Shown: positions 959-31,568 of the stretch, piece after piece | Position numbering within the stretch: position 1 is the stretch's first letter | Layout of the letters: each line of letters begins with the position of its first letter | NCBI GenBank assembly: GCA_003211205.1 | Contig: QCTJ01000007.1 | Coordinates: 1 to 64,000, forward strand | DNA from: Synechococcus sp. AG-673-F03 | GTDB taxonomy: Bacteria; Cyanobacteriota; Cyanobacteriia; PCC-6307; Cyanobiaceae | Direction of reading: 5' to 3' | Length of the DNA stretch: 64,000 nucleotides | Program-made: the position numbers and the translations under genes | Notes under the pieces: model-generated | Seen by the model: only the letters and a program-made list of their open reading frames with translations | Told to the model about the DNA's origin: nothing | Databases searched by the model: none

Positions 959-973
959 TGAGAATGATTCCCA
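959..973 (+). promoter_or_regulatory. Zur/Fur-type operator before the COG0523-like operon
   Basis: TGAGAATGATTCCCA is a near-palindrome (GAATG/CATTC half-sites) matching the TGAtAATgATTaTCA pattern of cyanobacterial Zur boxes. It ends about 41 bp before the first start codon at 1015, the expected place to block RNA polymerase. The same pattern recurs before znuA, znuC, ZIP and metallothionein genes in this window, so Zur is favoured over Fur. Confidence 0.7.
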
Positions 974-1014
974 TTCCCAGGCCCGCGGATACCCGGGTCT
1001 GACGCTTTCTGGCC

Positions 1015-1797
1015 ATGCAGAACACCTGGCTGATCACGGGTCCTCCCGGCTGCGGGAAAACCACTTGGATCCGCGACTCCTTTCTGAAGCACCAAGGCAC
1101 CTGTGCCTATCTCCGCTTGAGCGGGTCCGAACAAGACGGCCTCCAACAGGGCCATAACGCAGGCATCGACAGCACCTGGCTCCAGGACCAGATCCCTGAG
1201 CTTCTGGATCTTCGAACAACAGCGGGTGCTCCGCGGCCAACAGCGCCCCGACTGCTACTGATCGAGGTTCAGCAGTTTCAGCCACCAACCAGCAGTGGCC
1301 CGGACGGCATCGATCCGCAGGTGCTGCGGCAGCTGGAGGTCTTCAATCTGCGGCCGGATCGCTCACTGCATTTCGGCCTGGATCCAGAACTCCCGCACGA
1401 AGACGTCCTGGACTTCAAGCGTCTTGAATCCTGGCATCGCAATCTTCAAGGTTGTGTCTGGGATCCCAACAGCCTCAGCAGCTTCTGGTTTGAGCTGGTG
1501 AATGGCGCCTATGGCGATGTGTATCGGGCCAAAGCACTAATGAACATGCCGGATGGTCGTTCATTCCTGTGCAACTGGATGGTGAGCCAGCAGAGCTCTC
1601 AGTTTCTTCCCTTGGAAGCGGTAGAGCCGCCGGCAGGCAGGCCGAATCGCACATCACACCTGGTGGTGCAGGGCCGAGCCCTTGACCCCGCCGGCATTGA
1701 GTCAACGATCGACGACTGCCTGCTCACAGACGACGTGCTGGAACTGCATCAGGCCCCACTCAGAGACAGACAACACGCCCTTCAATCCAACGGATGA
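1015..1797 (+). CDS. COG0523/CobW-like P-loop NTPase lacking the CxCC motif
   Basis: 260 residues. A Walker A motif GPPGCGKTT lies at residues 9-17 and an LLLIEV strand like a Walker B near 95. The C-terminal part (about 160-250) resembles a CobW C-terminal domain: WFELVNGAYGDVYRAKAL, then VVQGRALDP and DDCLLTDDVLE. The family (CobW, ZNG1, YjiA, YciC) consists of GTPase metallochaperones, several induced by zinc starvation. The conserved CxCC metal site after Walker A is absent, so either metal binding uses other residues or the role has changed. The gene is first in a three-gene operon and overlaps the next by ATGA. A Zur-type box precedes it, which supports a zinc-limitation role; the exact function is inference. 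Confidence 0.65.
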   Translation: MQNTWLITGPPGCGKTTWIRDSFLKHQGTCAYLRLSGSEQDGLQQGHNAGIDSTWLQDQIPELLDLRTTAGAPRPTAPRLLLIEVQQFQPPTSSGPDGIDPQVLRQLEVFNLRPDRSLHFGLDPELPHEDVLDFKRLESWHRNLQGCVWDPNSLSSFWFELVNGAYGDVYRAKALMNMPDGRSFLCNWMVSQQSSQFLPLEAVEPPAGRPNRTSHLVVQGRALDPAGIESTIDDCLLTDDVLELHQAPLRDRQHALQSNG

Positions 1798-2614
1798 CCA
1801 TGAGCCACGCAGTGATCTCCTGCCTGCACGCCAACCTCGCAGCCTGCGAAGCCGTACTGGCCGATATCGACCAACAAGGCATCGACACGATTACCTGTTT
1901 GGGCGATCTGGTGGGCTACGGCCCCCAACCCAATGAAGTGATTGAACTCGTCCGTGAACGCTCCATTCCCACCTGCCAGGGCTGCTGGGATGAGGACATC
2001 ATCGACGGACTCAACGCCTGCGAATGCAGCTATCCCTCCCAGCTGGCCGAGCGTCGCGGTCATCGCGCACACCACTGGGCTGCTGAGCGCATCACCGAAG
2101 ACAACAAGGTTTTTCTGGCAAGCCTGCCCATGACGCTGCGCAGAGACCGCTTGCTGTTTGTGCATGGCAGTCCCAACAGTCAGCACGAATACCTTCTGCC
2201 AGACATGAGTGCCTTCGCAGCACTGGAACGGGTGGAAACCGCTGGAGCGGAGACCTTGTTTTGCGGTCACACCCATCAGCCCTATGTGAGAGAGCTCAGT
2301 GAAGGATCCATTCGGGTGTCGGTACAGACGAACGGCAATCACAACGACAGCGAACAGGCGATGACTCTGCCGATGCGCCGCATTATCAATGCCGGCTCAG
2401 TCGGAGAGCCCAGGCATGGTTCGACCAAAGCAACCTATGTGGTCCATGACGACGACAGCGGTGCGGTGAGTGTCGTGAAGTGGAGTACGACGTCTCCAAA
2501 ACCTGTCAAGCCATCATTGAGGCGGGATTACCCGAGGTGTTCGCCTGGCGTCTGAGCCACGGGTTCGAATATGCCGAGCGTGCGGAAGACGCCAGCCACG
2601 TGTGTGAGCGCTGA
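1794..2614 (+). CDS. metallophosphoesterase-like protein with altered active site and an apparent frameshift
   Basis: The fold motifs of the YfcE/MJ0936-like calcineurin phosphoesterases are in order: ISCLHAN at about residue 8 (usual DxHGN), GDLVGYGP near 40, QGCWDE near 63 (usual GNHD), FVHGSP near 120, CGHTHQPY near 162 and NAGSVGEPR near 202. The first Asp is replaced by Cys and the Asn-His pair by Cys-Trp, so the dimetal site must differ. The uninterrupted frame runs out at 2555 with an unlikely tail. From 2483 a second frame gives a family-like C-terminus (EAGLPEVFAWRLSHGFEYAE) ending in TGA at 2612-2614, which overlaps the next ATG. One missing G near 2480 would restore the frame. The start overlaps the upstream stop (ATGA). 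Confidence 0.6.
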
Positions 2615-3333
2615 TGGAACGTTGGGCACTGGTGAGTGGTCTGCGTGGAGACCTTGATCTGTATGAGCAGATCCAATCCGATCTGCAGAAGCGGCGCGGA
2701 ACGGCACATCTCTTTATTCTGGGCGACATGATCGGCCCCCACCCCAAGTGTGATGCGCTGTTGAAGCGCTTATGCCAACCAAAACGCGGTGATCTCCATC
2801 CCCACTGCATCTACGGCTGGCTGGAAGAGCAATTGCTGTCTCTTTACGGCTATCGCGGGGAAGCCAAAGCCGATGAATTGCAGCTTCAATCCGACGACTC
2901 CGGAGTTCAGCAGTTACGGCAGGCGGTGGACACAGAGCACCTCAACTGGCTGGCTTCGCTGCAATTTGGCTTGATTGAGCTGGACTGCGGCCTGATCCAC
3001 GGCAGCTCAGCGGATGTGGGCGACGAACTGCAGGAAACGACTTCACCGTTGATCCTGCTCGACCGCCTCACTCGACTGGATGTCAATCGACTGTTCACGG
3101 CGCGCAGTGGACGTCAGTTCAGATTGCAGCTCACAGGGGGACAGATTCGATCCAGAGTGAAAGATCACGCCAGCGAGCAGCTGCATGAACAGCCTGTGCC
3201 CAAACGCAGCGTGATTGGTGTGGGTTCGGGCGCCAACTACACCCTCTACGACCCGGCCAGTGATCACATCGAATTTCTGAGTGTTGCCAGCAGATCAGGG
3301 CCTTCAAACCGGATCAAAGGCTTCCAGCGCTGA
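2614..3333 (+). CDS. degenerate metallophosphoesterase-like protein
   Basis: 239 residues. The layout follows the preceding gene: VSGLRGDLDL at residue 7, LFILGDMIGPHP near 33, YGWLEEQLL near 67, LIHGSS near 125, TARSGRQF near 155 and VGSGANYTLYDP near 200. Most metal ligands of the family (DxH, GNHD, GHxH) are gone, which suggests a non-catalytic partner or scaffold for the upstream enzyme. It starts one base inside the upstream stop (TGATG), so the two are probably translationally coupled. It is third in the Zur-box-led operon. Function unknown. Confidence 0.55.
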   Translation: MERWALVSGLRGDLDLYEQIQSDLQKRRGTAHLFILGDMIGPHPKCDALLKRLCQPKRGDLHPHCIYGWLEEQLLSLYGYRGEAKADELQLQSDDSGVQQLRQAVDTEHLNWLASLQFGLIELDCGLIHGSSADVGDELQETTSPLILLDRLTRLDVNRLFTARSGRQFRLQLTGGQIRSRVKDHASEQLHEQPVPKRSVIGVGSGANYTLYDPASDHIEFLSVASRSGPSNRIKGFQR

Positions 3334-3464: not shown

Positions 3465-4562
3465 TTAGTTAGTAATCTGAAGATCAAGAAGTGCCAGCTC
3501 AGCACTCAGACCAGGGCCGAAAGCCAACGCAAGGCAGGGGCCTGCCACCGATCGCCGACGCAGCCGTTCGAGGATGAACAGGATCGTCGCCGACGACATG
3601 TTGCCGTGATCCTGGAGAACGACTCTGGATTCCTCCAGAAGCTTGGTGTCCAGTGCCAACGCTTCAGCACAGGTCGAAAGAATCTTCGGACCGCCTGGGT
3701 GCACTGCCCAGCTGCGTATCTCCGAGAGATCAACTGCCCGAGTCTGCAGCCAATCTTGCAACCAGGGCAACAGTGCTGCCCCCACCGTTGCCGGCACAAG
3801 CGGCGACAATCCCATCGAAAAGCCGTGATCACCAATCTCCCAGTGCATGAGATCAGCACTGTCGGGGATCACCATCGAGCCGCTGCTCTGCAGCACAAGG
3901 TCCCGATAAGAGGATGGCGGGCCAGCTGAACCAACAACGGCTGCCGCTCCATCAGCGAACAACGCATTGGCGACCACTTGTTCGGGATGCCAGCCGTACG
4001 ACATATGCAGGCTGCAAAGCTCCACGGCGCAAAGCAGAACCACCGCATTGGGATCCATCTCGGCAAAGGCATGCGCGACACGTAGGCCGTTAAGTGCTCC
4101 GTGGCATCCCATGAAGCCAACATGTGTTCGTTGCACCGCAGCGGAAAGTCCAAGCTTGTCGATCAGGAATAAATCGACCCCAGGCGATTGAAAGCCAGTG
4201 CAGCTCACGGTCACTAAATGGGTAATCGCTGATGGCCTGAAGCTGGAATCGTTCAGTGCTTCGCGAGCGGCCTGCAACGCAAGTTGACCTGCATGCTCGC
4301 CAAAGGCCTGCATCCGCTCTGCCGTGCCGGGACTCTCCGTGCCGTAAAAACTCAGACGCTTCCGATTCATTCCTCCATCGGCTTCCTTTCCGAGCAGCAC
4401 ACTGCCGCGGTTGAGCACCTTGGTCTTCTGGTAGATCCGGTCCATCAGCCTGGCCTGTTCAGGACTTTCGGCATTGATGCGATGCGCCACCTCCAGCGCT
4501 TCCGCTTGACTCAAACTCTGAGTGGGCACTGCCGTACCGATGCCATGGAGTGTCAGTGGCAT
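3465..4562 (-). CDS. type III polyketide synthase (chalcone/stilbene synthase fold)
   Basis: 365 residues, normal for the family. The catalytic triad is visible: Cys about 154 in VGFMGCHGA, His about 289 in WAVHPGGPKIL and Asn about 322 in DHGNMSSATILFIL. These enzymes extend an acyl-CoA or acyl-ACP starter with malonyl units to give alkylresorcinols, pyrones or phloroglucinols. It is last in a methyltransferase - FAD oxygenase - PKS operon and its start overlaps the upstream gene by 10 bp. From memory this combination matches the picocyanobacterial hierridin (hidA-type) alkylresorcinol clusters and the Streptomyces srsABC phenolic-lipid genes. Starter chain and product cannot be read from the sequence. 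Confidence 0.85.
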   Translation of the reverse strand: MPLTLHGIGTAVPTQSLSQAEALEVAHRINAESPEQARLMDRIYQKTKVLNRGSVLLGKEADGGMNRKRLSFYGTESPGTAERMQAFGEHAGQLALQAAREALNDSSFRPSAITHLVTVSCTGFQSPGVDLFLIDKLGLSAAVQRTHVGFMGCHGALNGLRVAHAFAEMDPNAVVLLCAVELCSLHMSYGWHPEQVVANALFADGAAAVVGSAGPPSSYRDLVLQSSGSMVIPDSADLMHWEIGDHGFSMGLSPLVPATVGAALLPWLQDWLQTRAVDLSEIRSWAVHPGGPKILSTCAEALALDTKLLEESRVVLQDHGNMSSATILFILERLRRRSVAGPCLALAFGPGLSAELALLDLQITN

Positions 4563-5710
4563 GGATCAGGGCAGGCCGTGGAGGGAACAACGCGATTGAG
4601 GCCACTGATGACACGCTCAGGGATGGCGGGCCAATGGCATCCCAATCTGAACACGGCGGCTGTTGCGAGCGGTTGGCGTAACAACGTCGACAACAGGCGG
4701 CAGACACGCTGACGACTCACCGTCAGATCCTCAAGCCTCTGTTGCCAGCGCAGCTCAAGATCAGCACTCCATGCTGCCTGTGCCTCCTCCACGAAAGGGG
4801 CCACCGCCGCTCCGGCAGCGAGAGCCCAGGCCATGCCTTCACCGGTGAAGGGTTCTACGTAACCGGTGGAATCACCCAGCAGCAGAAAGCGATCACCCGC
4901 GACGACACCGGCACGGCGCGTCAGCGCCGGGGTCAACTGCCAGCGTGATGTTTCCAGAGCTCGAGGAATCGCGAATCCGGCCTGGCGCAGAACCAGATCC
5001 GACGCATGAGCCACTCCACCGGCAGACCTCACCGCAGTGGGATCGAAAGCAGCGGCCAGATTGAGAGCGCCATCCTCACGGCGCACCAAGCCGACATAAC
5101 CACGCCGAGAAATGGCCATATGAATGGTTCCGCTGGCGTAAACGACCTCGTCGTCGTTGATCAGGCAGCCTGCCCCAATCCTTGAGTCCGGAGCGATCCA
5201 GGTTGTGCGCCGGTCGCTTGATGCCAAGACCTGATGCTGCAAACCAGCTGCGACCAGAACAACACGGGCCCTAACTCGCTCGGCTGGTGCACCACCGGAA
5301 GGACGCAGTCGCACCACTCGATCATCGGCGCAAGTCTCCTCAAGAACGGCACCGGTCTGGAACCTCACCGTGGCTCCTGCCGCCTCAGCCGCATGGACCA
5401 ACGCCTGATCGAAACGCTCCCGTGACAGTGCCCAGCCTCCGGGCAACCCCAGATTCAGCGTCCTGCCATTCCAGCCGAGACGCACCTGATCGAGAGGCAC
5501 TCCTCCCTGATCACGGATCAAGTCCGGCAAACCAACCGCAGCCAGGCCAGCCAAAGCATTGGCATTGAAGCAACAACCACAAACCTTCCAGCGAGGAAAG
5601 GAGCGCTTCTCAACGAGCAGAACAGTCAGACCTCGACGCGCACAGTCGAGGGCGGCCAGTCCACCGGCCACTCCCGCTCCGATCACCACGACATCCCAGC
5701 GGTTCTGCAT
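4553..5710 (-). CDS. FAD-dependent aromatic hydroxylase / geranylgeranyl-reductase-like flavoprotein
   Basis: 385 residues from MQNRWDVV, a better start than upstream candidates because it lies one base after the methyltransferase stop. An N-terminal Rossmann motif VVVIGAGVAGGLAAL is followed by the ADP-binding Glu in LLVEKRSFPR. A KVCGCCFN motif sits where GG-reductase-type flavoproteins carry PxKxCGGG. The second FAD motif, FLLLGDSTGYVEPFTGEG, is near residue 285. In a type III PKS cluster such an enzyme would hydroxylate or oxidise the resorcinol ring. It lies between and is tightly coupled to the methyltransferase and PKS genes. Confidence 0.75.
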   Translation of the reverse strand: MQNRWDVVVIGAGVAGGLAALDCARRGLTVLLVEKRSFPRWKVCGCCFNANALAGLAAVGLPDLIRDQGGVPLDQVRLGWNGRTLNLGLPGGWALSRERFDQALVHAAEAAGATVRFQTGAVLEETCADDRVVRLRPSGGAPAERVRARVVLVAAGLQHQVLASSDRRTTWIAPDSRIGAGCLINDDEVVYASGTIHMAISRRGYVGLVRREDGALNLAAAFDPTAVRSAGGVAHASDLVLRQAGFAIPRALETSRWQLTPALTRRAGVVAGDRFLLLGDSTGYVEPFTGEGMAWALAAGAAVAPFVEEAQAAWSADLELRWQQRLEDLTVSRQRVCRLLSTLLRQPLATAAVFRLGCHWPAIPERVISGLNRVVPSTACPDPCH

Positions 5711-5711
5711 C

Positions 5712-6428
5712 TCAGTGGGGTCTCCAGCAAAGCCGGTATCGCTCTGGCCAGTTGCGCTCCAGCACCGGATGATGCAATCCGGCCTGAGCGGCAAGGTCGA
5801 GGACCTCAGAGGGAGTGAATGCCGCCTGGACTGACAGTGGGCCGTCGTAATGCACCACCCAGGAACGGCTCAACAAGCGAGTACCAGCCCAGGCCAGTGC
5901 ATAGCCCAGACGGCTGCGGATCAGATCATCCACCAGCACAAGTCTGCGCGCCTTGGCCGACATCACGGACAGCAGTCGCACCACCTCCGGAGGGTCGAGG
6001 TGATGAACGAACAGAGTGCAGTACACCACATCAAACGTTCTGTCGTCAGACGGTTCGAGCGCATCGGCAACAAACAATTCGACACTGCTGTTCTGCCTGG
6101 CGACATTGCGACGGGCGATCCGAATGGCCTCAGGATTGAGGTCGCAAGCGTGGATCCTCATCTTCAGCTGACGTCGTTTGGCCAGCGCTGCCAGCTCGAT
6201 GGCTGTGTCACCTCCTCCACAGGCCAGCTCGAGCACGCTCAATGGAGCCGTTGGAGTCTCAAGTGCGAGCGATTCAAGATGGCGAAACAAGCCTGGAACG
6301 CAACGGCTGATGGCATTGATGCGCCGCAGACCCCGAAGCGCCCGGTCGTGCTCAACAGGGTCCAGACCAGGCTGATCCATCACTTCGGGCTTCCGATCGC
6401 GCGGCATCGGAACCAAGCCCGGAGTCAT
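5712..6428 (-). CDS. SAM-dependent class I methyltransferase of the PKS cluster
   Basis: 238 residues from MTPGLVPM (an earlier TTG is possible). SAM-binding motif I is LSVLELACGGGDTAIELA near residue 65, motif II is IHACDLNPEAI, and FDVVYCTLFVHHLD follows. It probably O- or C-methylates the aromatic product of the downstream type III PKS. It opens the three-gene operon, with its stop one base before the flavoprotein ATG. The region upstream (6429-6689) holds no gene and presumably the operon promoter, which I could not place. Confidence 0.75.
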   Translation of the reverse strand: MTPGLVPMPRDRKPEVMDQPGLDPVEHDRALRGLRRINAISRCVPGLFRHLESLALETPTAPLSVLELACGGGDTAIELAALAKRRQLKMRIHACDLNPEAIRIARRNVARQNSSVELFVADALEPSDDRTFDVVYCTLFVHHLDPPEVVRLLSVMSAKARRLVLVDDLIRSRLGYALAWAGTRLLSRSWVVHYDGPLSVQAAFTPSEVLDLAAQAGLHHPVLERNWPERYRLCWRPH

Positions 6429-6689
6429 CTGGTGATGTTGCAGATTACGCAAAGCTAGAGAGCTGACTGCACCAACCGCTTCCCTGGTTCGAGGCAGGCG
6501 GGGTTGCTCCGATCAGAGCCGGGGGCGACCTGAAAATCATCAAAGGCGGCTCACACCTCTGTTCACCTCAGTACTGCCTCCGCTTCCGCCCAGCTGCCCG
6601 CTCTCCTCAGGAAGCCAGCGAAAGCACCAGTCACCTCGGCTTCCGCTGCATCTCACGGCACAGGCCGAAGTGATCAGGCTCCTACCAGT

Positions 6690-25038: not shown

Positions 25039-26028
25039 TCAGAACGAGAAGGTCACACCGGTGCCGATATGGTGGTTCCAGCCCATGCCACCCTCTGAGC
25101 CCCAATCTTCAGAACTATAGATAGGTTCCCAGTGTGCAAACAGAGCAATATTGTCTGTAATCGGGTATTCCATCTCAAGCTCTCCGCCCCAGTCGGTGCG
25201 CGATGAAAGGCCTGAATAGCTGCCGGGTGAATAGAAACGTGGACCACCCGAAAGTGTGATGTTCAGCAGGTCAACATTGAAACCGAAACCAGGCCAGAGG
25301 TCGGTGTAATTACCAATGTAGGTACCATTGGCTTCCCAACCCGTGCGATTTTCAACTGAAACAAAAACTCCGTCGATGACATCTTCCAGGCCATCACCCA
25401 GTGCAAAGTTCACATCGCCATCACCGAATGCATAAGTGACATTGACACCAACCTCATTCTTGAGACCTTCACCCATTTCCTCGCCTTTACCTGTCACGTA
25501 ATAAGGCATCCAAGCAACCTGCAATGCCAGCCTGTCATTGGGTTGATAGCGAGCAGCTAAGTAGCCACGAACATCTGTTCGCTTGAACGGTGCACCCGAT
25601 GCAAGAGCGTGCCCTTCTTCATGGGCATGATCGTCGTCGTGATCATCATGGTCTTCATCTCCATGATCATCGTGGCCGTCTCCATGAGCATGAACGATTC
25701 CGTAAAAGTGTTCAGCCTCTCCATAAACAGCCGAAGGTCCGATGGATCCTTCAATGGCAAAAACACCATTGTTGGGCAGTCCCCATTCGAAAACGTAACC
25801 AAACTGGCCATCAATAGCGTAGTGCTCAGGATTGCCATCGAGATTGGTCTCAAAACCTCCATGACCCTCAATGGTGATCACAGGAGTGACCTTGAATTCA
25901 CCCTCGGGAACTTGTTCACCACCACCATGTCCGCCATGGGCATGAACCCCGCGGATTGCAGCATCACCAGCCAGCAATAAGGCAAGACTAGCTGCGGCAT
26001 TCAGAAACGAAAGACGAGGAAAAATCAT
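25039..26028 (-). CDS. His-rich outer-membrane beta-barrel, candidate zinc porin/receptor
   Basis: 329 residues with a signal peptide ending near VHAHGGHGGG. The body alternates Gly/aromatic beta strands and ends in VTFSF with a C-terminal Phe, as expected for an outer-membrane barrel. Around residues 115-145 a loop contains HAHGDGHDDHGDEDHDDHDD, with more His after it, an obvious zinc-binding segment. The gene starts 33 bp after znuA on the same strand and should share its Zur-box promoter. From memory, marine Synechococcus have a Zur-controlled putative zinc porin, and this protein fits that idea. The substrate is inference from the His loop and context. Confidence 0.7.
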   Translation of the reverse strand: MIFPRLSFLNAAASLALLLAGDAAIRGVHAHGGHGGGEQVPEGEFKVTPVITIEGHGGFETNLDGNPEHYAIDGQFGYVFEWGLPNNGVFAIEGSIGPSAVYGEAEHFYGIVHAHGDGHDDHGDEDHDDHDDDHAHEEGHALASGAPFKRTDVRGYLAARYQPNDRLALQVAWMPYYVTGKGEEMGEGLKNEVGVNVTYAFGDGDVNFALGDGLEDVIDGVFVSVENRTGWEANGTYIGNYTDLWPGFGFNVDLLNITLSGGPRFYSPGSYSGLSSRTDWGGELEMEYPITDNIALFAHWEPIYSSEDWGSEGGMGWNHHIGTGVTFSF

Positions 26029-26061
26029 TAGATCAAAAAACCAGAAAAGTGTGCAAATAAA

Positions 26062-26955
26062 TCAGCGAATTGAGGCCCAACGCTCCTGAAGCTGAGCTGC
26101 ACCGTTTTCATTACAACGTCCGCCCTGGGCAACAACGAACGTGCAGATGTTGCCTGTTGCTGTTTGGACAAGACTTTTGCCTGGAGCCTGGCCATCTGCA
26201 AACAAAGGCTTACTGGCGAGGGGAACGCCACTGGCCTTGCTGATCCGGCGCATCGTCTTGGACGGGGGCAAAGCCTCGGGGAAGATCACCTTGGTTCCTG
26301 ACTTCTTGATCGCCTTGCTGATGGCACTCAGGCTGGAGGGGCGCATGCGGCCGCCGGTGGCGTATTCATCAACAACAGGGAGTTCACGAATGCCGAACCG
26401 ACGCGCCAGGAAGGAATAGGCGCGGTGTCCTGTAATCAGAACGCGCTGTTCAGCAGGCACGGTCCGAATTTGCTGGCCCGTCCAGGTTCCGAGCGAACCC
26501 AGCACTGAATCCATGGCAGCCCTGCGTTGATCAATCGCTGCGTCCTGAGTTCCGTTGAACACAGGCTTGAGCTTGACCGCAACCGCATTGGTCATGGACG
26601 CCGCGATTGCAGGGTCATGCCACAGATGCGGGTCATTCATTGGATTGCTGGGAACAGCAATTTCGCCAACGGATACAACCGGACCGCCGGCTTTGACGCC
26701 CTTGAGGGCAGGCGTGAGGTTGTAGCCGTTCAGCAGCACAAGCTTGGCTTTGCTGAGATTGCTGCGATCAGCAGGCCTGAGGGCCATGGTGTGCGGGTCT
26801 GCACCCGGCGGGATCAAGCAAATGACGCGAGCTTGATCAGCCACCAACTTCTTGGTGATGTCGCAGAGAACGCCGTCAACTGCAACAACCGTTGGGGCTG
26901 AAGAGGCAGCGGCTAGCAGGGTTCCTGCTGCTGCCGTGACGAGAGGGAAAGGCAA
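26062..26955 (-). CDS. znuA: zinc ABC transporter substrate-binding protein ZnuA
   Basis: About 297 residues with a signal peptide. Cluster A-I ligands are visible: PPGADPHTMAL near 50, NDPHLWHDP near 110, ITGHRAYSFLARRFG near 175 and an acidic residue in IFPEALPPS near 229. The usual His-rich loop of ZnuA is missing; the downstream barrel carries it instead. Two C-terminal Cys (ICTFVV, GRCNE) form the family disulfide. The only in-frame start is TTG at 26955 since a stop lies upstream, which probably lowers translation. A Zur-type box lies 25 bp upstream. It binds Zn2+ in the periplasm for ZnuBC. Confidence 0.85.
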   Translation of the reverse strand: MPFPLVTAAAGTLLAAASSAPTVVAVDGVLCDITKKLVADQARVICLIPPGADPHTMALRPADRSNLSKAKLVLLNGYNLTPALKGVKAGGPVVSVGEIAVPSNPMNDPHLWHDPAIAASMTNAVAVKLKPVFNGTQDAAIDQRRAAMDSVLGSLGTWTGQQIRTVPAEQRVLITGHRAYSFLARRFGIRELPVVDEYATGGRMRPSSLSAISKAIKKSGTKVIFPEALPPSKTMRRISKASGVPLASKPLFADGQAPGKSLVQTATGNICTFVVAQGGRCNENGAAQLQERWASIR

Positions 26956-26979
26956 AACGCGACAAAATATCTGCGGAAA

Positions 26980-26994
26980 TGATAATCATTCTCA
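26980..26994 (-). promoter_or_regulatory. Zur operator before znuA
   Basis: On the minus strand TGAGAATGATTATCA, close to the Zur consensus, between the znuB stop and znuA start (only 52 bp apart). It gives znuA and the His-rich barrel a promoter separate from znuCB. Confidence 0.75.
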
Positions 26995-27007
26995 TCGACT
27001 GTGCAAG

Positions 27008-27799
27008 TCAGGCTGAATTTGCAGGTCGGAGGTTGGGCAGGCAGAGCAAAACCATGCAGACAACGCCGATCAGGGGACCCGGAGGAAGATTGAGCGGAAC
27101 AGCCAACAGGAAGCCCACGGCACTGAGAGAAAGACCCACAAGCGCCGACTGAAGCATTGCCGCACGCAGACTTTTCACTCGCCAGAGCCCAGGGAGCACC
27201 GGTGCGCACAACAGGCCAATCACAAGAATTACCCCCACCGCAGCCATGGCACTGACGATCACCATGGAGGTGACCAACGCCTGAACCAACTGCAGGCTCC
27301 GCACCGACATGCCAGAAGCCTGGGCACCCTCAGGATCAACACCCAAAAAAACAAGCTGTCGGTAGCGGGTCAAAAGCAACAGCAGCATCGCGGCAGCAGC
27401 CACAAGAACCCTGTAGAGGTCTGACCAGTCGACGATCAACAAATCGCCGAACAAGAGAGCCTCCAGATCAAGGCGAATGTTGAGCACTGGAATCAAGAGC
27501 ACACCGAGGCCGAGAAAACCAGCGAGCACCGTGTTGATCACAGCTTCCTGGCCCGCGGGTTGCCCCCGCTGCATGCGCTCAGCCGCCAGTGAGCCCAGCA
27601 ACCCGCTTATCACACCCCCGATTGCTGGGTCCACTCCGAATGCCACCGCGATGGCGACGCCCGGCAAAACAGCATGGGAAATCAGATTCGCCTGCAACAC
27701 GCGTCGTTGTGTCACCAGCAAGGTGCCGGTGACCGGGCAAAGCACCCCAACGAGCAACGACATCAGTAGCGGCACCAACCAGAGATCGAGCTCACTCAT
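27008..27799 (-). CDS. znuB: zinc ABC transporter permease ZnuB
   Basis: 263 residues from MSELDLW; the longer frame lies inside znuC. About eight membrane helices. The family motif SHAVLPGVAIAVAFG near residue 45 and ASGMSVRSLQLVQALVTSM near 185 match ABC-3 permeases. ATGAGTGA overlaps the znuC stop by eight bases. It forms the inner-membrane channel for zinc uptake with ZnuC and ZnuA. Confidence 0.85.
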   Translation of the reverse strand: MSELDLWLVPLLMSLLVGVLCPVTGTLLVTQRRVLQANLISHAVLPGVAIAVAFGVDPAIGGVISGLLGSLAAERMQRGQPAGQEAVINTVLAGFLGLGVLLIPVLNIRLDLEALLFGDLLIVDWSDLYRVLVAAAAMLLLLLTRYRQLVFLGVDPEGAQASGMSVRSLQLVQALVTSMVIVSAMAAVGVILVIGLLCAPVLPGLWRVKSLRAAMLQSALVGLSLSAVGFLLAVPLNLPPGPLIGVVCMVLLCLPNLRPANSA

Positions 27800-28493
27800 G
27801 TCTGTATTCCCGACGCTCAGGCTGGCTGCTGAGCTTGCGACGCACCTGCTCGGGGCGACCATCCGCCACGACGCTGACATCGAGGACAATCACGCGATCA
27901 AAGAGATCGAGGGAGGTCCCCCAGTCGTGGTTGCTCACCAACAGGGTGTGACCTGAATCAGCGAGTTGACGCATGAGCGCAAGCAGCTGCTCCCGCGACG
28001 GCGGATCAATCGCGGCACAGGGTTCATCCAGCAACAGAACCCGAGAGGGCTGCACCAGCGTTCTGGCCAGCAAGGCCCGTTGCTGCTGACCTCCCGACAA
28101 TGCATCCAAACGACGAGTCGCCAGTGTTTCCAGACCGACACGCTGCAATGCCGCTTCCCGGTCGCAACAACCAAAGGAACGGTGACCGATCTCCCCGAGT
28201 GCCACAAACTCACGCACGGTGATGGGGAAAGACCAGTCGATCCTGCCCCGCTGCGGCATCAGCACCACCCGATCACGGCAGCTCTGAATCGGCATCCCAT
28301 CGCAAGCGACCTTGCCGGCGGAAGGCGTCAATCGGCCTTGCAACATGTGCAGCAAGGTGGATTTGCCGGCACCGTTGGCACCGACCAGCGCCGTCAGCGT
28401 TCCGGCTTCCAGCGTCAACGACACATCATCAACAACGACTCGATCGCCATAGGCGACAGACAGACCTTGCGCGACGAGGGGAGCCACCCTCAT
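27792..28493 (-). CDS. znuC: zinc ABC transporter ATPase ZnuC
   Basis: 233 residues. Walker A GANGAGKST near 36, Q-loop VLMPQRGRIDWSFP near 72, signature LSGGQQQRALLARTL near 125 and Walker B VLLLDEPCAAIDPP near 145, then the switch His in LLVSNHDW. Closest to Mn/Zn-type ABC ATPases; the adjoining znuA and Zur boxes favour zinc. The start lies only six bases from the Zur box, so the operator probably overlaps the transcription start and ribosome site. Confidence 0.85.
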   Translation of the reverse strand: MRVAPLVAQGLSVAYGDRVVVDDVSLTLEAGTLTALVGANGAGKSTLLHMLQGRLTPSAGKVACDGMPIQSCRDRVVLMPQRGRIDWSFPITVREFVALGEIGHRSFGCCDREAALQRVGLETLATRRLDALSGGQQQRALLARTLVQPSRVLLLDEPCAAIDPPSREQLLALMRQLADSGHTLLVSNHDWGTSLDLFDRVIVLDVSVVADGRPEQVRRKLSSQPERREYRHE

Positions 28494-28499
28494 GGGCAG

Positions 28500-28514
28500 T
28501 GAGAACGATTCTCA
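28500..28514 (-). promoter_or_regulatory. Zur operator before znuCB
   Basis: TGAGAA-CGA-TTCTCA type sequence with perfect six-base arms. It lies between the stop of the propeller-like gene (28521) and znuC (28493), so it may also act on readthrough from upstream. Confidence 0.75.
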
Positions 28515-28520
28515 GCCAAC

Positions 28521-29906
28521 TTATCGAGATGGCATTGAAAAGTCAGTCAATGCTCCTCCTGCAGGCAGCCAACTCGCCAGCACCGCCGTCTGCTCCAGCA
28601 CCTCGAGATTGAGTGTGCTGCCGGAAATCAGAGCGATCCGTCCGTGGTCGGCGGCAGGCTTCTGAACCACCGTGAGCAGTTGATCACTCACGGGGTCGTA
28701 GTCGAGTTCCGACCCCGAGCTCAATCGCCATGGCCCCAGGGAGCGTCGACGGATCTCTTGCCCTTCGCTGTCGAGCTGCAGGAGCACGTCCTCGGTGCGC
28801 AGGCCGGCCTCCCGCAACACCAGCCAGAGGCGCTCGCCACCGTTATCGCAAGCCGCCGCCATCACCCCGGCTTCACCCAGCCAAACCTGCTGTGGAGGCC
28901 GGGCTGGAATCACCAGCTCGAGGGAACGGCGGTAGTCAGGCCAGTGACGCACCAACAGAGCGCGCCCGGATCCGGAGCAGAAGGCCTTCACCTCCCGACT
29001 TCCAGGCAGAGACTGCCTTGATCCTCCTTCCAGGGAAGGATTGAGGGGCAGCAACTCCAAACCGTCGTAGGACGGCAATACCAGTCCGTTGCCATCCGGA
29101 AGCAGACGCAGAGGACCGCTGGCCTTCAAATCCAGAAACCGTCGTGCGTTGCCTCGAGACTGAATCCAGACGCGATCACTGTCTGGCTCAAACCCCCCGA
29201 GCTGAACCAGCAATTCACCCAGTTGATTGCTACTCAGATGAGCAAACAGCAGCGATCCCGAGTCTCCGGACTCCAGCTCCTCAAGACTGCCCAGCACTGG
29301 ATCCCCAAGACCTTGCTCACGGATGCTGAGAGCCTGTTGATCCAGTTGACGCAGCAGCACCCGCTGCCGAGCCTCACTGTCGTCGCTGACCAGTGCAACT
29401 CCGGAGCCATTGCCCAGTGGTTCAATTTGCAGAATGCGTTGCTGCACCGGTGCAAGCGACTGCCATCGTCCGTCTCGCAGGCGCAACTTCAAGCGTTCTC
29501 CATCCCCGCTGGGCACCACCGCAAGCAGGTGGGGCCTGGGGTGCCACCACACCACTTGCTTCTTGAGGGGCAACTGCCGCAGATCCTGACCATGCAGTTC
29601 CAGACGCAGAGGCCCCGTAATCGGTTGGCCGGAGTCCACTAGAAGCCGCAGACGATCCTGTCGCCCGAACCAGCTGTGCGGAAGATCTGGAGCCAGTGAA
29701 CTGGCTGCGACGGTGTCGCGATCCATCGGCCTGCTGAAGATCACATCCAGCGCAGCAGCTCCGGAACGCAGGGGCTGAATGGCCACGGATTGAAGCCAAG
29801 GTGGTCGTCGCAACAGGATCTGTTGCTGCACAACAGCCAGTCCGGCCAGAGCCGCAAGACTTCCAAGCAACAGCCGCGGCCTTGCCGATGAGGCCTGGGT
29901 GGTCAT
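28521..29906 (-). CDS. beta-propeller-like protein of unknown function
   Basis: 461 residues. One N-terminal membrane anchor or signal (LLLGSLAALAGLAVVQQQILL), then an Ig-like start (LDVIFSRPMDRDTVAASSLAPDL) and repeated strands such as SGVALVSDDSEARQRVL and LWLVLREAGLRTEDVLLQLD, suggesting a propeller. No enzyme motif. It overlaps the UPF0703-like gene by ATGA and is followed by znuC. It may be the periplasmic partner of the YcgR/YcgQ-like pair. Family not recognised. Confidence 0.6.
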   Translation of the reverse strand: MTTQASSARPRLLLGSLAALAGLAVVQQQILLRRPPWLQSVAIQPLRSGAAALDVIFSRPMDRDTVAASSLAPDLPHSWFGRQDRLRLLVDSGQPITGPLRLELHGQDLRQLPLKKQVVWWHPRPHLLAVVPSGDGERLKLRLRDGRWQSLAPVQQRILQIEPLGNGSGVALVSDDSEARQRVLLRQLDQQALSIREQGLGDPVLGSLEELESGDSGSLLFAHLSSNQLGELLVQLGGFEPDSDRVWIQSRGNARRFLDLKASGPLRLLPDGNGLVLPSYDGLELLPLNPSLEGGSRQSLPGSREVKAFCSGSGRALLVRHWPDYRRSLELVIPARPPQQVWLGEAGVMAAACDNGGERLWLVLREAGLRTEDVLLQLDSEGQEIRRRSLGPWRLSSGSELDYDPVSDQLLTVVQKPAADHGRIALISGSTLNLEVLEQTAVLASWLPAGGALTDFSMPSR

Positions 29907-30607
29907 GGTTCGAGAGGGCGCTCAGGCCTTGGAATCAGTGTCATCTGAGTCGGCTTCACCACACTGACCGGCACCCCATTCCGCTCCTGCACAATCATCG
30001 TCCCCTCGATCGAAAACCATTGGTCCGCCTGAGGGTTCGCCTCAGCTGGCCAGTCCACGGGCAGGCCGGCTGGCGTTGCATCCGCGAGGCAGCAACGCAC
30101 CGTCAAGCGAGCCAGTTGCAAGGGTTCACCAGGTCGATCCAGAACAAAACCACTGATCCGCACAGGATCTCCTGCGTGCAACTCCGGGTCGGGTTGACTG
30201 CGAAGCAGCCGCACCCACTCCGTCAGCGTGCGCTGCTCCGGAGGCAGGAAAAAACTCAGACTCGGTGCCGCCGGAAGACTGTCCGGACGGCTCGCGGCAA
30301 GGTCACTGAACGATGGTCGGGGAGGCAGAAGCAAAATCAACAACGCCACTGCTGCGGATAGCAACCAGCCGAGAGGAGCAACAGGCAGGCGACGTCGACC
30401 AGCCAGCCGCAGCTGGATCAGTCCAACCAGCATCAGCACCACACCGGCAACGGCGACCACCGGGTGAAAGGCCGCATTCAGCAGCAGATCCAACCGGGAA
30501 GACAGGCTGCTCCACACCAGCACCCAGCCCCAGAGCGTGAGCACCAGAGGGGGGAGAACAGCTGCCCGACGCAGGTGACGCAAGGATCTCATCGCTGCAG
30601 ACACCAC
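29903..30607 (-). CDS. UPF0703 (YcgQ/TIGR03943-like) membrane protein
   Basis: About 234 residues; GTG at 30607 or ATG at 30592. Two or three N-terminal membrane helices, a proline-rich linker, then the conserved periplasmic domain PVRISGFVLDRPG, ARLTVRCCLADATPAGLPV and WFSIEGTM, with the conserved double Cys. These proteins partner the UPF0718 permease encoded immediately upstream. In other bacteria the pair has been linked to Zur-controlled loci (from memory). Substrate unknown; a metal or metal complex is likely by context. Confidence 0.75.
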   Translation of the reverse strand: MVSAAMRSLRHLRRAAVLPPLVLTLWGWVLVWSSLSSRLDLLLNAAFHPVVAVAGVVLMLVGLIQLRLAGRRRLPVAPLGWLLSAAVALLILLLPPRPSFSDLAASRPDSLPAAPSLSFFLPPEQRTLTEWVRLLRSQPDPELHAGDPVRISGFVLDRPGEPLQLARLTVRCCLADATPAGLPVDWPAEANPQADQWFSIEGTMIVQERNGVPVSVVKPTQMTLIPRPERPLEP

Positions 30608-30608
30608 A

Positions 30609-31568
30609 TCAGAGCTGAATCAGGTTCACCCACTGGCCGATCAGCAGAACCATCAGTGATGCAGACAGCGCTGTGATTGCAATGGCTCGCGGAGTGAGCA
30701 GAACGGTAAACAATCCGGCCAGTTTGAGATCAACGACCGGTCCAAGCAACAGGAAAGCCAGTAACGCTCCTGGGGTGACCTGGGCGGCAAAACCGAGTGC
30801 CAGAAAAGCGTCCACACTCGAACACACCGAGACCACCAACGCCAGCAGCATCAACGCAAGGACCGACAGTGTTGGCGCACTGCCAAGAGCCAGCAGCCAA
30901 CTGCGCGGCAGCCAGGTTTGCACCACGGCGGCCAGAGCACTGCCGAGCACCAACAACGTGAGCAGGCTGAGGAATTCCCGGGTGCTGTGGGAGAGAAGCT
31001 CACGCGGCAAAAGGGCCGTTGACTGGGCTGGCATTGCAGGCTTGGCCGGACCTGCGCCGACCAGTCCTGTGCGGCGCTCGAGCAACCCGATGCTCGAAAG
31101 GGGCTGACTGAGCCTGCGCTCTTCCAGCAGTGCACCCTGAAGCAGGCGGGATTCAGGAATCATCCCCAGCAAAGCGCTCAAAGCCAGTGCAATTACAAAT
31201 GCCCCAGCAGGCCTGGCCCAAAGCAACCAGGTTTTATCCGGAAATGCCGCCCAGGTGCTGGCCAGAACAATGGGGTTGAGAACCGGGGCAGCGAAAAGAA
31301 AGCCGAATCCCGTACCTAAAGGAGCACCGCTGGCCAGGAGGCGACGAGCCACCGGCACATTGCCGCATTCACAGGCCGGGAGCGCAAACCCGAGCAAGGC
31401 TCCAACGATTGGTGCGAGCAGGGGATTTCGTGGCAGACGTCGAACCCAGGCCGACTGGGGAACCAGCCAGCGAGCGAGGCCGGCGATGGTGACCCCCAGC
31501 ATCAAAAAGGGAAGTGCCTCGATCAGCAGGCCTTGGAAGATGGCCCAGGCTGTGGCAAGACGCGTCAT
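30609..31568 (-). CDS. UPF0718 (YcgR/YraQ-like) permease
   Basis: 319 residues, about eight membrane helices. The family motifs are clear: FALPACECGNVPVARRL near 66 with two Cys, GFLFAAPVLNPIVLAST, and the second repeat VSVCSSVDAFLALGFA near 240 and LLGPVVDLKL near 275. The protein starts a run of co-directional genes: permease, UPF0703, propeller-like, znuC, znuB, znuA, His-rich barrel. No Zur box was seen in front of it. Confidence 0.8.
   Translation of the reverse strand: MTRLATAWAIFQGLLIEALPFLMLGVTIAGLARWLVPQSAWVRRLPRNPLLAPIVGALLGFALPACECGNVPVARRLLASGAPLGTGFGFLFAAPVLNPIVLASTWAAFPDKTWLLWARPAGAFVIALALSALLGMIPESRLLQGALLEERRLSQPLSSIGLLERRTGLVGAGPAKPAMPAQSTALLPRELLSHSTREFLSLLTLLVLGSALAAVVQTWLPRSWLLALGSAPTLSVLALMLLALVVSVCSSVDAFLALGFAAQVTPGALLAFLLLGPVVDLKLAGLFTVLLTPRAIAITALSASLMVLLIGQWVNLIQL

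Follow-up and report, generated by a model that had tools for sequence, protein, structure and literature searches.

A conserved three-gene unit under a Zur-type box in cyanobacteria joins a COG0523-like NTPase to a metallophosphoesterase with cysteines at two metal ligands

A 64,000-nucleotide stretch of Synechococcus sp. AG-673-F03 (contig QCTJ01000007.1, positions 1 to 64,000; hereafter the window) carries, downstream of a Zur-type box at 959–973, a unit of three genes whose products we call, in their order, NTP, MPE and TRD: a COG0523-like nucleoside triphosphatase (NTPase), a metallophosphoesterase with cysteines at two of its metal ligands, and a pseudo-metallophosphoesterase (Table 1). 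Conservation, gene context and one published mutant, the last by way of a gene identity that we infer, strongly support regulation of the unit as a Zur-repressed zinc-starvation operon, which we consider very probable. The fuller reading, in which such an operon supplies a thiolate-site phosphoesterase kept working by its NTP partner, draws its mechanism from sequence and fold, and we place it at about even odds (roughly 0.5).

Marine picocyanobacteria live at very low zinc. Many cyanobacteria carry the trio, whose occurrence goes together with a Zur-type box and which frequently lies among classic zinc-starvation genes. Searches of the literature on metallophosphoesterases with Zur, Anabaena and COG0523 gave, in the part of the matching literature covered, no account of the trio as a module, and alr1197 turned up in a review only; the three-gene zinc unit of cyanobacteria is thus apparently undescribed.

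Results

Conservation of the box and the gene order

NTP was found in 96 of 251 genomes of the family (sampled from a larger group), the source genome included, with some matches fragmentary or interrupted by stops, and in nine of the 15 other genomes of the genus. From the 95 other NTP-positive genomes 80 loci were taken, the omissions being mainly fragments and near repeats. MPE comes after NTP in 79 of these 80 picocyanobacterial loci, and TRD is present in 78. The exceptions are L035, where NTP stands alone with an in-frame stop and MPE and TRD are absent, and L056, which has NTP and MPE but in which TRD was not found; in both, the unit appears to have decayed or to have been lost in part.

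Boxes were scored over the 12 fixed positions of TGANAATNATTNTCA in the stretch from −300 to +30 around the NTP start, and compared with 1916 equally long control stretches out of the same 80 loci, some of which may contain real boxes. A box of at least 9/12 precedes the first gene of the unit in 78/80 loci (408/1916 controls) and one of at least 10/12 in 65/80 (75/1916 controls); near NTP itself, at least 10/12 is reached in 57/80. At 14 loci the end of a CxCC-bearing COG0523 gene and the start of NTP share 4 nt: here the box stands ahead of the COG0523 gene in 14/14, with scores of 9–11 (stretches of 400 nt, compared with 330 nt for the controls), and NTP is without a box, its scores of 6–7 being at chance level. 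A chance box is ruled out by the control stretches and by the box preceding COG0523 wherever that gene leads.

The named genomes were scanned with an MPE alignment, and the best 80 of 584 relatives were kept; by our assignment, these comprise 33 picocyanobacterial, 38 other-cyanobacterial and nine non-cyanobacterial loci, from genomes partly shared with the set above. NTP is immediately upstream of MPE in all 38 other-cyanobacterial loci, which include Nodosilinea, Leptolyngbya, Anabaena, Calothrix, Microcystis and Prochloron. TRD is found in 34/38, about 3 kb off in L157 and L177, and three of the four loci without it have little or no sequence beyond MPE. Neither NTP nor a separate TRD was detected at E 1e-3 in any of the nine non-cyanobacterial loci. 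A box of at least 10/12 is present in 27/33 named picocyanobacterial loci (63/987 controls) and in 31 of the 37 other-cyanobacterial loci scored (80/1073 controls; L158 was too short). The check proposed by the first-pass annotation of this DNA, that box and gene order be followed jointly across relatives, thus finds both conserved, and the trio recurs beyond the picocyanobacteria.

In the source genome, the site at 959–973 is the only one that matches TGAGAATNATTCYCA with no mismatch. Allowing one mismatch adds five further sites, of which one is at znuA and another at znuC, and the reversed control pattern yields none even then. The near-palindrome that had been recognised ahead of the unit is of Zur type and beyond chance. 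The resemblance of TGATAATNATTATCA to the Escherichia coli Fur box would suit an iron site, a reading to which we give hardly any credence, given that the identical motif type stands at znuA and znuC within the window, that the neighbours are zinc genes and that PCC 7002 G0131 responds in a zur mutant (PMC4628125, as far as its available part goes). The three other one-mismatch boxes of the source genome (G000) lie at C2:41662, C6:14829 and C16:7967.

In a tree of 61 rows (L269 and L190 left out), TRD sequences form one group (support 100/100) and MPE sequences another (93/63); four non-cyanobacterial rows with the Cys-type site group together (100/99), as do 13 canonical rows (95/88). Both MPE and TRD separate picocyanobacterial from other-cyanobacterial rows on a well-supported branch, which suggests that the pair is probably old. 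A local oddity or pseudogene is ruled out by the conservation across relatives, and a phage origin by a phage collection that gave a single distant match, to Vibrio phage Va2 (25.6% identity). One contig titled as a Blastopirellula metagenome-assembled genome (MAG), L113, holds a picocyanobacterial copy (87% identity) with a TRD match 5.8 kb past MPE, and is probably mis-binned.

Reading frames of the unit

The NTP and TRD frames are open in the window. After 2473 the window is one base shorter than the relatives L184 and L112, and the resulting slip of frame makes the called MPE open reading frame (ORF) stop at 2555; the deficit is either an assembly error or a real frameshift of the source MAG (2.0 Mb, 81% complete). 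Two overlaps had been proposed to join the genes. The TGATG at 2612–2616 holds only in the post-slip frame, and the ATGA at 1794 gives way to an ATG at 1800, 2 nt past the NTP stop, where the relatives align, 1794 being a second candidate start. In 77/78 loci, the MPE and TRD genes share an overlap of 4 or 1 nt.

Published Zur data and Zur proteins

In Synechococcus PCC 7002, a zur mutant and treatment with N,N,N′,N′-tetrakis(2-pyridylmethyl)ethylenediamine (TPEN) show raised hemB-II, folE-II, G0131 (described as GTPase-like) and G0132, according to the available part of PMC4628125. The copy of the unit on pAQ7 of this strain (L245, 23717–25488) is broken: the first 147 residues of NTP are left, 99% identical to PCC 7117 and preceded by a 12/12 box, as are the last 130 residues of TRD, and an unrelated 235-residue ORF replaces the rest, the whole of MPE included. 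The pAQ7 record has newer locus tags, and from gene order and description we infer that G0131 is the NTP remnant, G0130 the inserted ORF and G0129 the TRD remnant. If the identity of G0131 is right, its response would be evidence from living cells that Zur controls the NTP promoter. Because this strain's copy is broken, only a fragment could show in the zur-mutant RNA sequencing, which may explain the published result.

SynZur of WH8102 targets Zur boxes of the znuABC kind (PMC9337993, available part). In G075, a complete relative with the module, a protein closely matches 7ne9 (3.6e-51), taken here as SynZur on the strength of that code occurring once in PMC9337993. The joint conservation of box and gene order, the Zur-regulon neighbours described below and, given the identity proposed for G0131, the response in PCC 7002 uphold the earlier proposal of a module for zinc starvation with a Zur-type box ahead of it.

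The NTP protein

NTP matches Pfam CobW_C with 26.6 bits (cut-off 22), and for this domain hhalign gives a probability of 88 (E 3.1e-6) with a wider alignment and of 48 (E 1.8e-4) with a narrow one. The AlphaFold2 (AF2) model (predicted local distance difference test, pLDDT, 84.4) has YjiA entries as its top three Foldseek matches (E 1.3e-7 to 2.3e-6; template modelling scores about 0.3), and its C-terminal domain superimposes on YjiA with Z 9.1 over 94 residues (root-mean-square deviation, rmsd, 2.4–2.5). For a nucleotide domain of SIMIBI type, the N-terminal half gives middling scores (Z 5–7.6, with FtsY, Ffh, HypB and MMAA), which may reflect just a common arrangement, and a profile search of the PDB gave weak P-loop matches, mostly AAA ATPases. 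When NTP was compared with COG0523 by hhalign, the C-terminal domain alone aligned and no whole-length alignment was obtained. Walker A is present in 80/80 picocyanobacterial and 32/35 other-cyanobacterial rows; CxCC is absent from all of both sets (0/80 and 0/35), and NKxD is found in 0/80 and 1/35. The first-pass description of an NTPase with a clear Walker A, a CobW-like C terminus and no CxCC agrees with these counts, and because CxCC occurs in 0/115 and NKxD in 1/115 rows, NTP is classed as COG0523-like and not as COG0523.

The MPE metal site

MPE belongs to Pfam Metallophos_2 (PF12850; 1.7e-22, 80.5 bits, cut-off 27). From the seven-ligand set DxH, GD, GN[HY]D, H and GHTH it keeps five, and two are replaced by cysteine: the motifs in the window read SCLHAN, with D changed to C, and GCWD, with N changed to C and H/Y to W. 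Ligands were tabulated over 150 rows, 79 from family genomes and 71 from named loci (some genomes occurring in both; L181 and L183 left out for their unknown letters). Position 8 is Cys in 149/150; H10, D36, C62 and W63 are each found in 150/150, H122 in 149/149, and H157 and H159 in 148/148 rows with letters there. In six canonical relatives, D8 and N62 stand where these cysteines do. L177, the sole row with Asp at position 8, also has its TRD about 3 kb away. These counts confirm the altered DxH and GNHD motifs within a retained phosphoesterase layout that had been noted earlier.

The AF2 model, made for the relative L184 (pLDDT 87.4), matches PH1004 (Z 29.5, rmsd 2.1, 227 residues), 1nnw (29.2, 2.1, 227), 3rqz (28.9, 2.6, 217) and the diadenosine tetraphosphate (Ap4A) hydrolase SapH (27.0, 2.7, 228), and many other phosphatases match too. 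Ligands are assigned to the individual metals as in known metallophosphoesterases, which we take to apply here. A cysteine at each metal should, from coordination chemistry, raise zinc preference and affinity. Asp and Asn are exchanged for Cys throughout the family, whereas the five remaining ligands are retained; this pattern favours a thiolate site with a liking for zinc and speaks against a zinc-free replacement. A metallophosphoesterase with one ligand exchanged for cysteine at each of its two metals is, to our knowledge, an uncommon arrangement.

The TRD protein

TRD has no Pfam match, and a PDB profile search with it gave nothing useful, yet it is homologous to MPE (hhalign probability 98.8, E 9.6e-17). 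Five of the seven ligands are gone, in keeping with the earlier remark that the third protein has lost most of them. Across 144 rows, Gly occupies position 8 in 143, Trp position 62 in 143 and Arg position 157 in 132 (His in nine); the two retained ligands, D36 and H122, are present in 142 and 141.

Zinc genes near the unit

The window also contains znuABC with two Zur-type boxes of its own, about 23–25 kb from the unit (Table 1).

Table 1. Positions in the window of the three-gene unit, the zinc-uptake genes and their Zur-type boxes
Feature	Position	Strand	Remarks
Zur-type box TGAGAATGATTCCCA	959..973	.	11/12 fixed positions of TGANAATNATTNTCA; 41 nt to NTP ATG
NTP, CxCC-less COG0523-like NTPase	1015..1797	+	260 residues; short P-loop domain and CobW_C domain (Pfam, AF2/Foldseek)
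MPE, metallophosphoesterase with Cys at two metal ligands	1800..2614	+	Pfam Metallophos_2; frame slip after 2473
TRD, pseudo-metallophosphoesterase	2614..3333	+	239 residues; hhalign to MPE; 5/7 ligands lost
ZnuA-like zinc-binding protein	26062..26955	-	Pfam ZnuA 4.6e-42
Zur-type box TGATAATCATTCTCA	26980..26994	.	12/12; 24 nt before called znuA start
ZnuB permease	27008..27889	-	Pfam ABC-3 2e-45
ZnuC ATPase	27792..28493	-	Pfam ABC_tran 2e-29
Zur-type box TGAGAACGATTCTCA	28500..28514	.	11/12; 6 nt before called znuC start

In Trichormus variabilis plasmid A the trio follows znuC, znuA, hemB, thrS, DUF1636, a CxCC GTP-binding protein, a methyltransferase, hisI and a hypothetical gene; in Dolichospermum pDol it stands after thrS, a GTP-binding protein and folE and before a second GTP-binding protein, with znu genes further on; and in Picosynechococcus, on plasmids again, it adjoins folE and hemB in PCC 7117 and NIES-970. 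A zinc-regulon-type neighbour is present in 26 of the 38 other-cyanobacterial loci, 24/38 being the safer figure since L160 and L172 match only by a 35% ATP-binding cassette (ABC) ATPase. By type, COG0523 is found at 20 of the 38, FolE at nine, HemB at nine, ZnuC at five, ZnuA at four, ThrS at three and HisI at three. None of six canonical-MPE loci has such neighbours, a weak control because these loci belong to other phyla.

COG0523 also lies near Cys-type MPE genes in three of five non-cyanobacterial loci (L181, L183 and L268), counted over loci of unequal length. The contig of L183, titled as a Thaumarchaeota MAG and suspected to be bacterial, reads COG0523, two WD40 proteins, a ZIP transporter, COG0523 and the Cys-type MPE. 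The order that supplies most canonical MPEs has the Cys type in few of its 146 genomes, those recognised being G580, G707 and, in part, G611. L254 and L259 encode metallophosphoesterases of the canonical DxH/GNHD type, and in both a COG0523 gene lies shortly upstream.

Within the window, the zinc-uptake cluster spans 25039–31568 and is flanked by a His-rich ORF at 25039–26028 with a sub-threshold beta-barrel match, a 461-residue ORF at 28521–29906 without a Pfam match, a DUF1980 protein and an ArsP_1 permease. Beyond TRD, at 3465–6452 on the minus strand, genes for a type III polyketide synthase-like protein, a flavin adenine dinucleotide (FAD) oxidoreductase and a methyltransferase were recognised by eye.

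Discussion

When zinc is scarce, Zur would leave the box at 959–973, and NTP, MPE and TRD would be produced together. MPE would retain a dinuclear phosphoesterase site with one thiolate per metal, C8 in place of Asp and C62 in place of Asn, and this site, built from C8 and C62 with H10, D36, H122, H157 and H159, should bind zinc tightly at low supply. NTP, which has kept the CobW_C half and lost CxCC, may act as an energy-coupled partner that loads or checks the MPE site, perhaps receiving its zinc from the canonical CxCC COG0523 chaperone that is often its neighbour. TRD is probably a non-catalytic paralogue of MPE and may pair with it. The output would most likely be a phosphoesterase, nucleotide-type to judge from its structural relative SapH, that is active in zinc-starved cells.

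Several observations weigh against this reading. No NTP match was found in 155 of the 251 family genomes, nor in 102 of the 167 of best quality, so the module is dispensable. The box scores below 9/12 in 2/80 loci (L083 and L084) and below 10/12 in 6/37 other-cyanobacterial ones. In the zur mutant of PCC 7002, G0129 (phosphoesterase) and G0130 were not raised (PMC4628125, available part), a silence that we attribute to the inserted gene. As described in the part of PMC9337993 at hand, none of the eight genes of the WH8102 SynZur regulon, three of which are uncharacterised, is an NTP-MPE-TRD operon. The source assembly (81% complete) shows one Fur-family protein, nearer Fur than SynZur, and a SynZur-like query matched that protein only. 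COG0523 is missing from two of the five non-cyanobacterial Cys-type loci, one of them a 4-kb contig, and canonical MPEs lie near COG0523 in 2/23 loci, a sample mostly from one order, so that the Cys type is not alone in its link to COG0523. With CxCC absent from 115/115 and NKxD from 114/115 rows, metal transfer or GTP use by NTP may have been lost. Finally, the C-terminal residues 262–271 of the MPE model, C269 included, are poorly modelled (pLDDT below 50).

The main rival, which we think possible though appreciably less probable than a working phosphoesterase, makes MPE a non-catalytic scaffold that carries or buffers zinc, with NTP and TRD helping it to acquire the metal and pass it to client enzymes produced in the same response, FolE or ThrS for example. 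Cysteines have been gained at both metal sites, the H/Y of GN[H/Y]D is Trp in 150/150 rows, and further cysteines are conserved at positions 74 and 76 (150/150), 269 (148/148 with letters) and 59 (142). The trio stands beside folE, hemB, thrS and COG0523 in several genomes, and PH1004 and 1nnw, the top structures by Z (tied with 3rqz), are without a DxH motif in the alignments. However, C74 and C76 are also Cys in 6/6 canonical relatives, the five other ligands of the catalytic site are present wherever letters exist, and conservation is highest in MPE (80% mean column identity, compared with 67 and 69 for the other two; about 30 rows per protein), a constraint for which a passive carrier would have no use.

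The first-pass annotation also raised a zinc-sparing module, in which MPE would use another metal (Fe, Mn or Co) and replace a zinc- or manganese-dependent paralogue. Metal-independent paralogues are common in Zur regulons (PMC2770081 and PMC6103462, in their available parts), but there the HemB, DksA and one of the PyrC paralogues lack their zinc ligands, unlike MPE, where no ligand position is empty and the new ligands are cysteines; the ligand loss typical of such paralogues is seen in TRD, a separate protein, which loses five. Because the MPE ligands are exchanged for Cys and not lost, we regard a zinc-free replacement as improbable, and the zinc-sparing sense of the earlier proposal finds no support. 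Its other sense, a role in zinc allocation, is plausible. Weakest among the functional alternatives, and very improbable, is a nucleotide or RNA repair pair of NTP kinase and MPE phosphatase, resembling polynucleotide kinase-phosphatase and merely co-regulated with zinc genes: NTP has weak Pfam P-loop matches under the cut-off, one of them to the kinase-type AAA_33, and the phosphatase domain of PnkP is among the MPE structural matches (Z 15.7, rmsd 3.2, 185 residues), but the C-terminal half of NTP is CobW_C, its best whole-model match is YjiA, and the neighbours examined are zinc genes.

The thiolate-site phosphoesterase with an NTP partner admits a bolder and doubtful extension, a third zinc-delivery route beside ABC uptake and CxCC COG0523. 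NTP would relay zinc from a COG0523 chaperone into an MPE-TRD heterodimer, and MPE would be both a zinc client and a zinc-gated hydrolase of a nucleotide signal, for example of Ap4A type; were this true, zinc status would set a nucleotide signal in cyanobacteria.

Comparison with known systems places each part of the unit near an established family. COG0523/CobW-family zinc chaperone NTPases include ZagA, ZigA and ZNG1. NTP shares with this family (structure of YjiA) the two-domain layout, Walker A, CobW_C, a Zur-type box and zinc-regulon neighbours, and differs in its short nucleotide domain and in its want of CxCC (115/115) and NKxD (114/115). MPE shares the fold and five of seven ligands with PF12850 metallophosphoesterases such as 3rqz and the asymmetric Ap4A hydrolase SapH (3qfm), whereas its Asp and Asn ligands have become Cys, its motif reads GCWD and it has an extra conserved C-terminal Cys. 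In common with the WH8102 SynZur regulon there are znuABC genes with Zur boxes, and a SynZur-like protein in the module-bearing relative G075; in the available part of PMC9337993 no regulon gene is described as this operon, and three are uncharacterised. G0129 and G0131 of PCC 7002, taken here as fragments of the trio, are mentioned in the literature, in the available part of PMC4628125 not as a module. With the Zur-regulated paralogue clusters (hemB2, folE2, thrS2) of Anabaena PCC 7120 and Synechococcus PCC 7002, the trio shares its box type and its physical neighbours; unlike them, it is not a set of enzyme paralogues.

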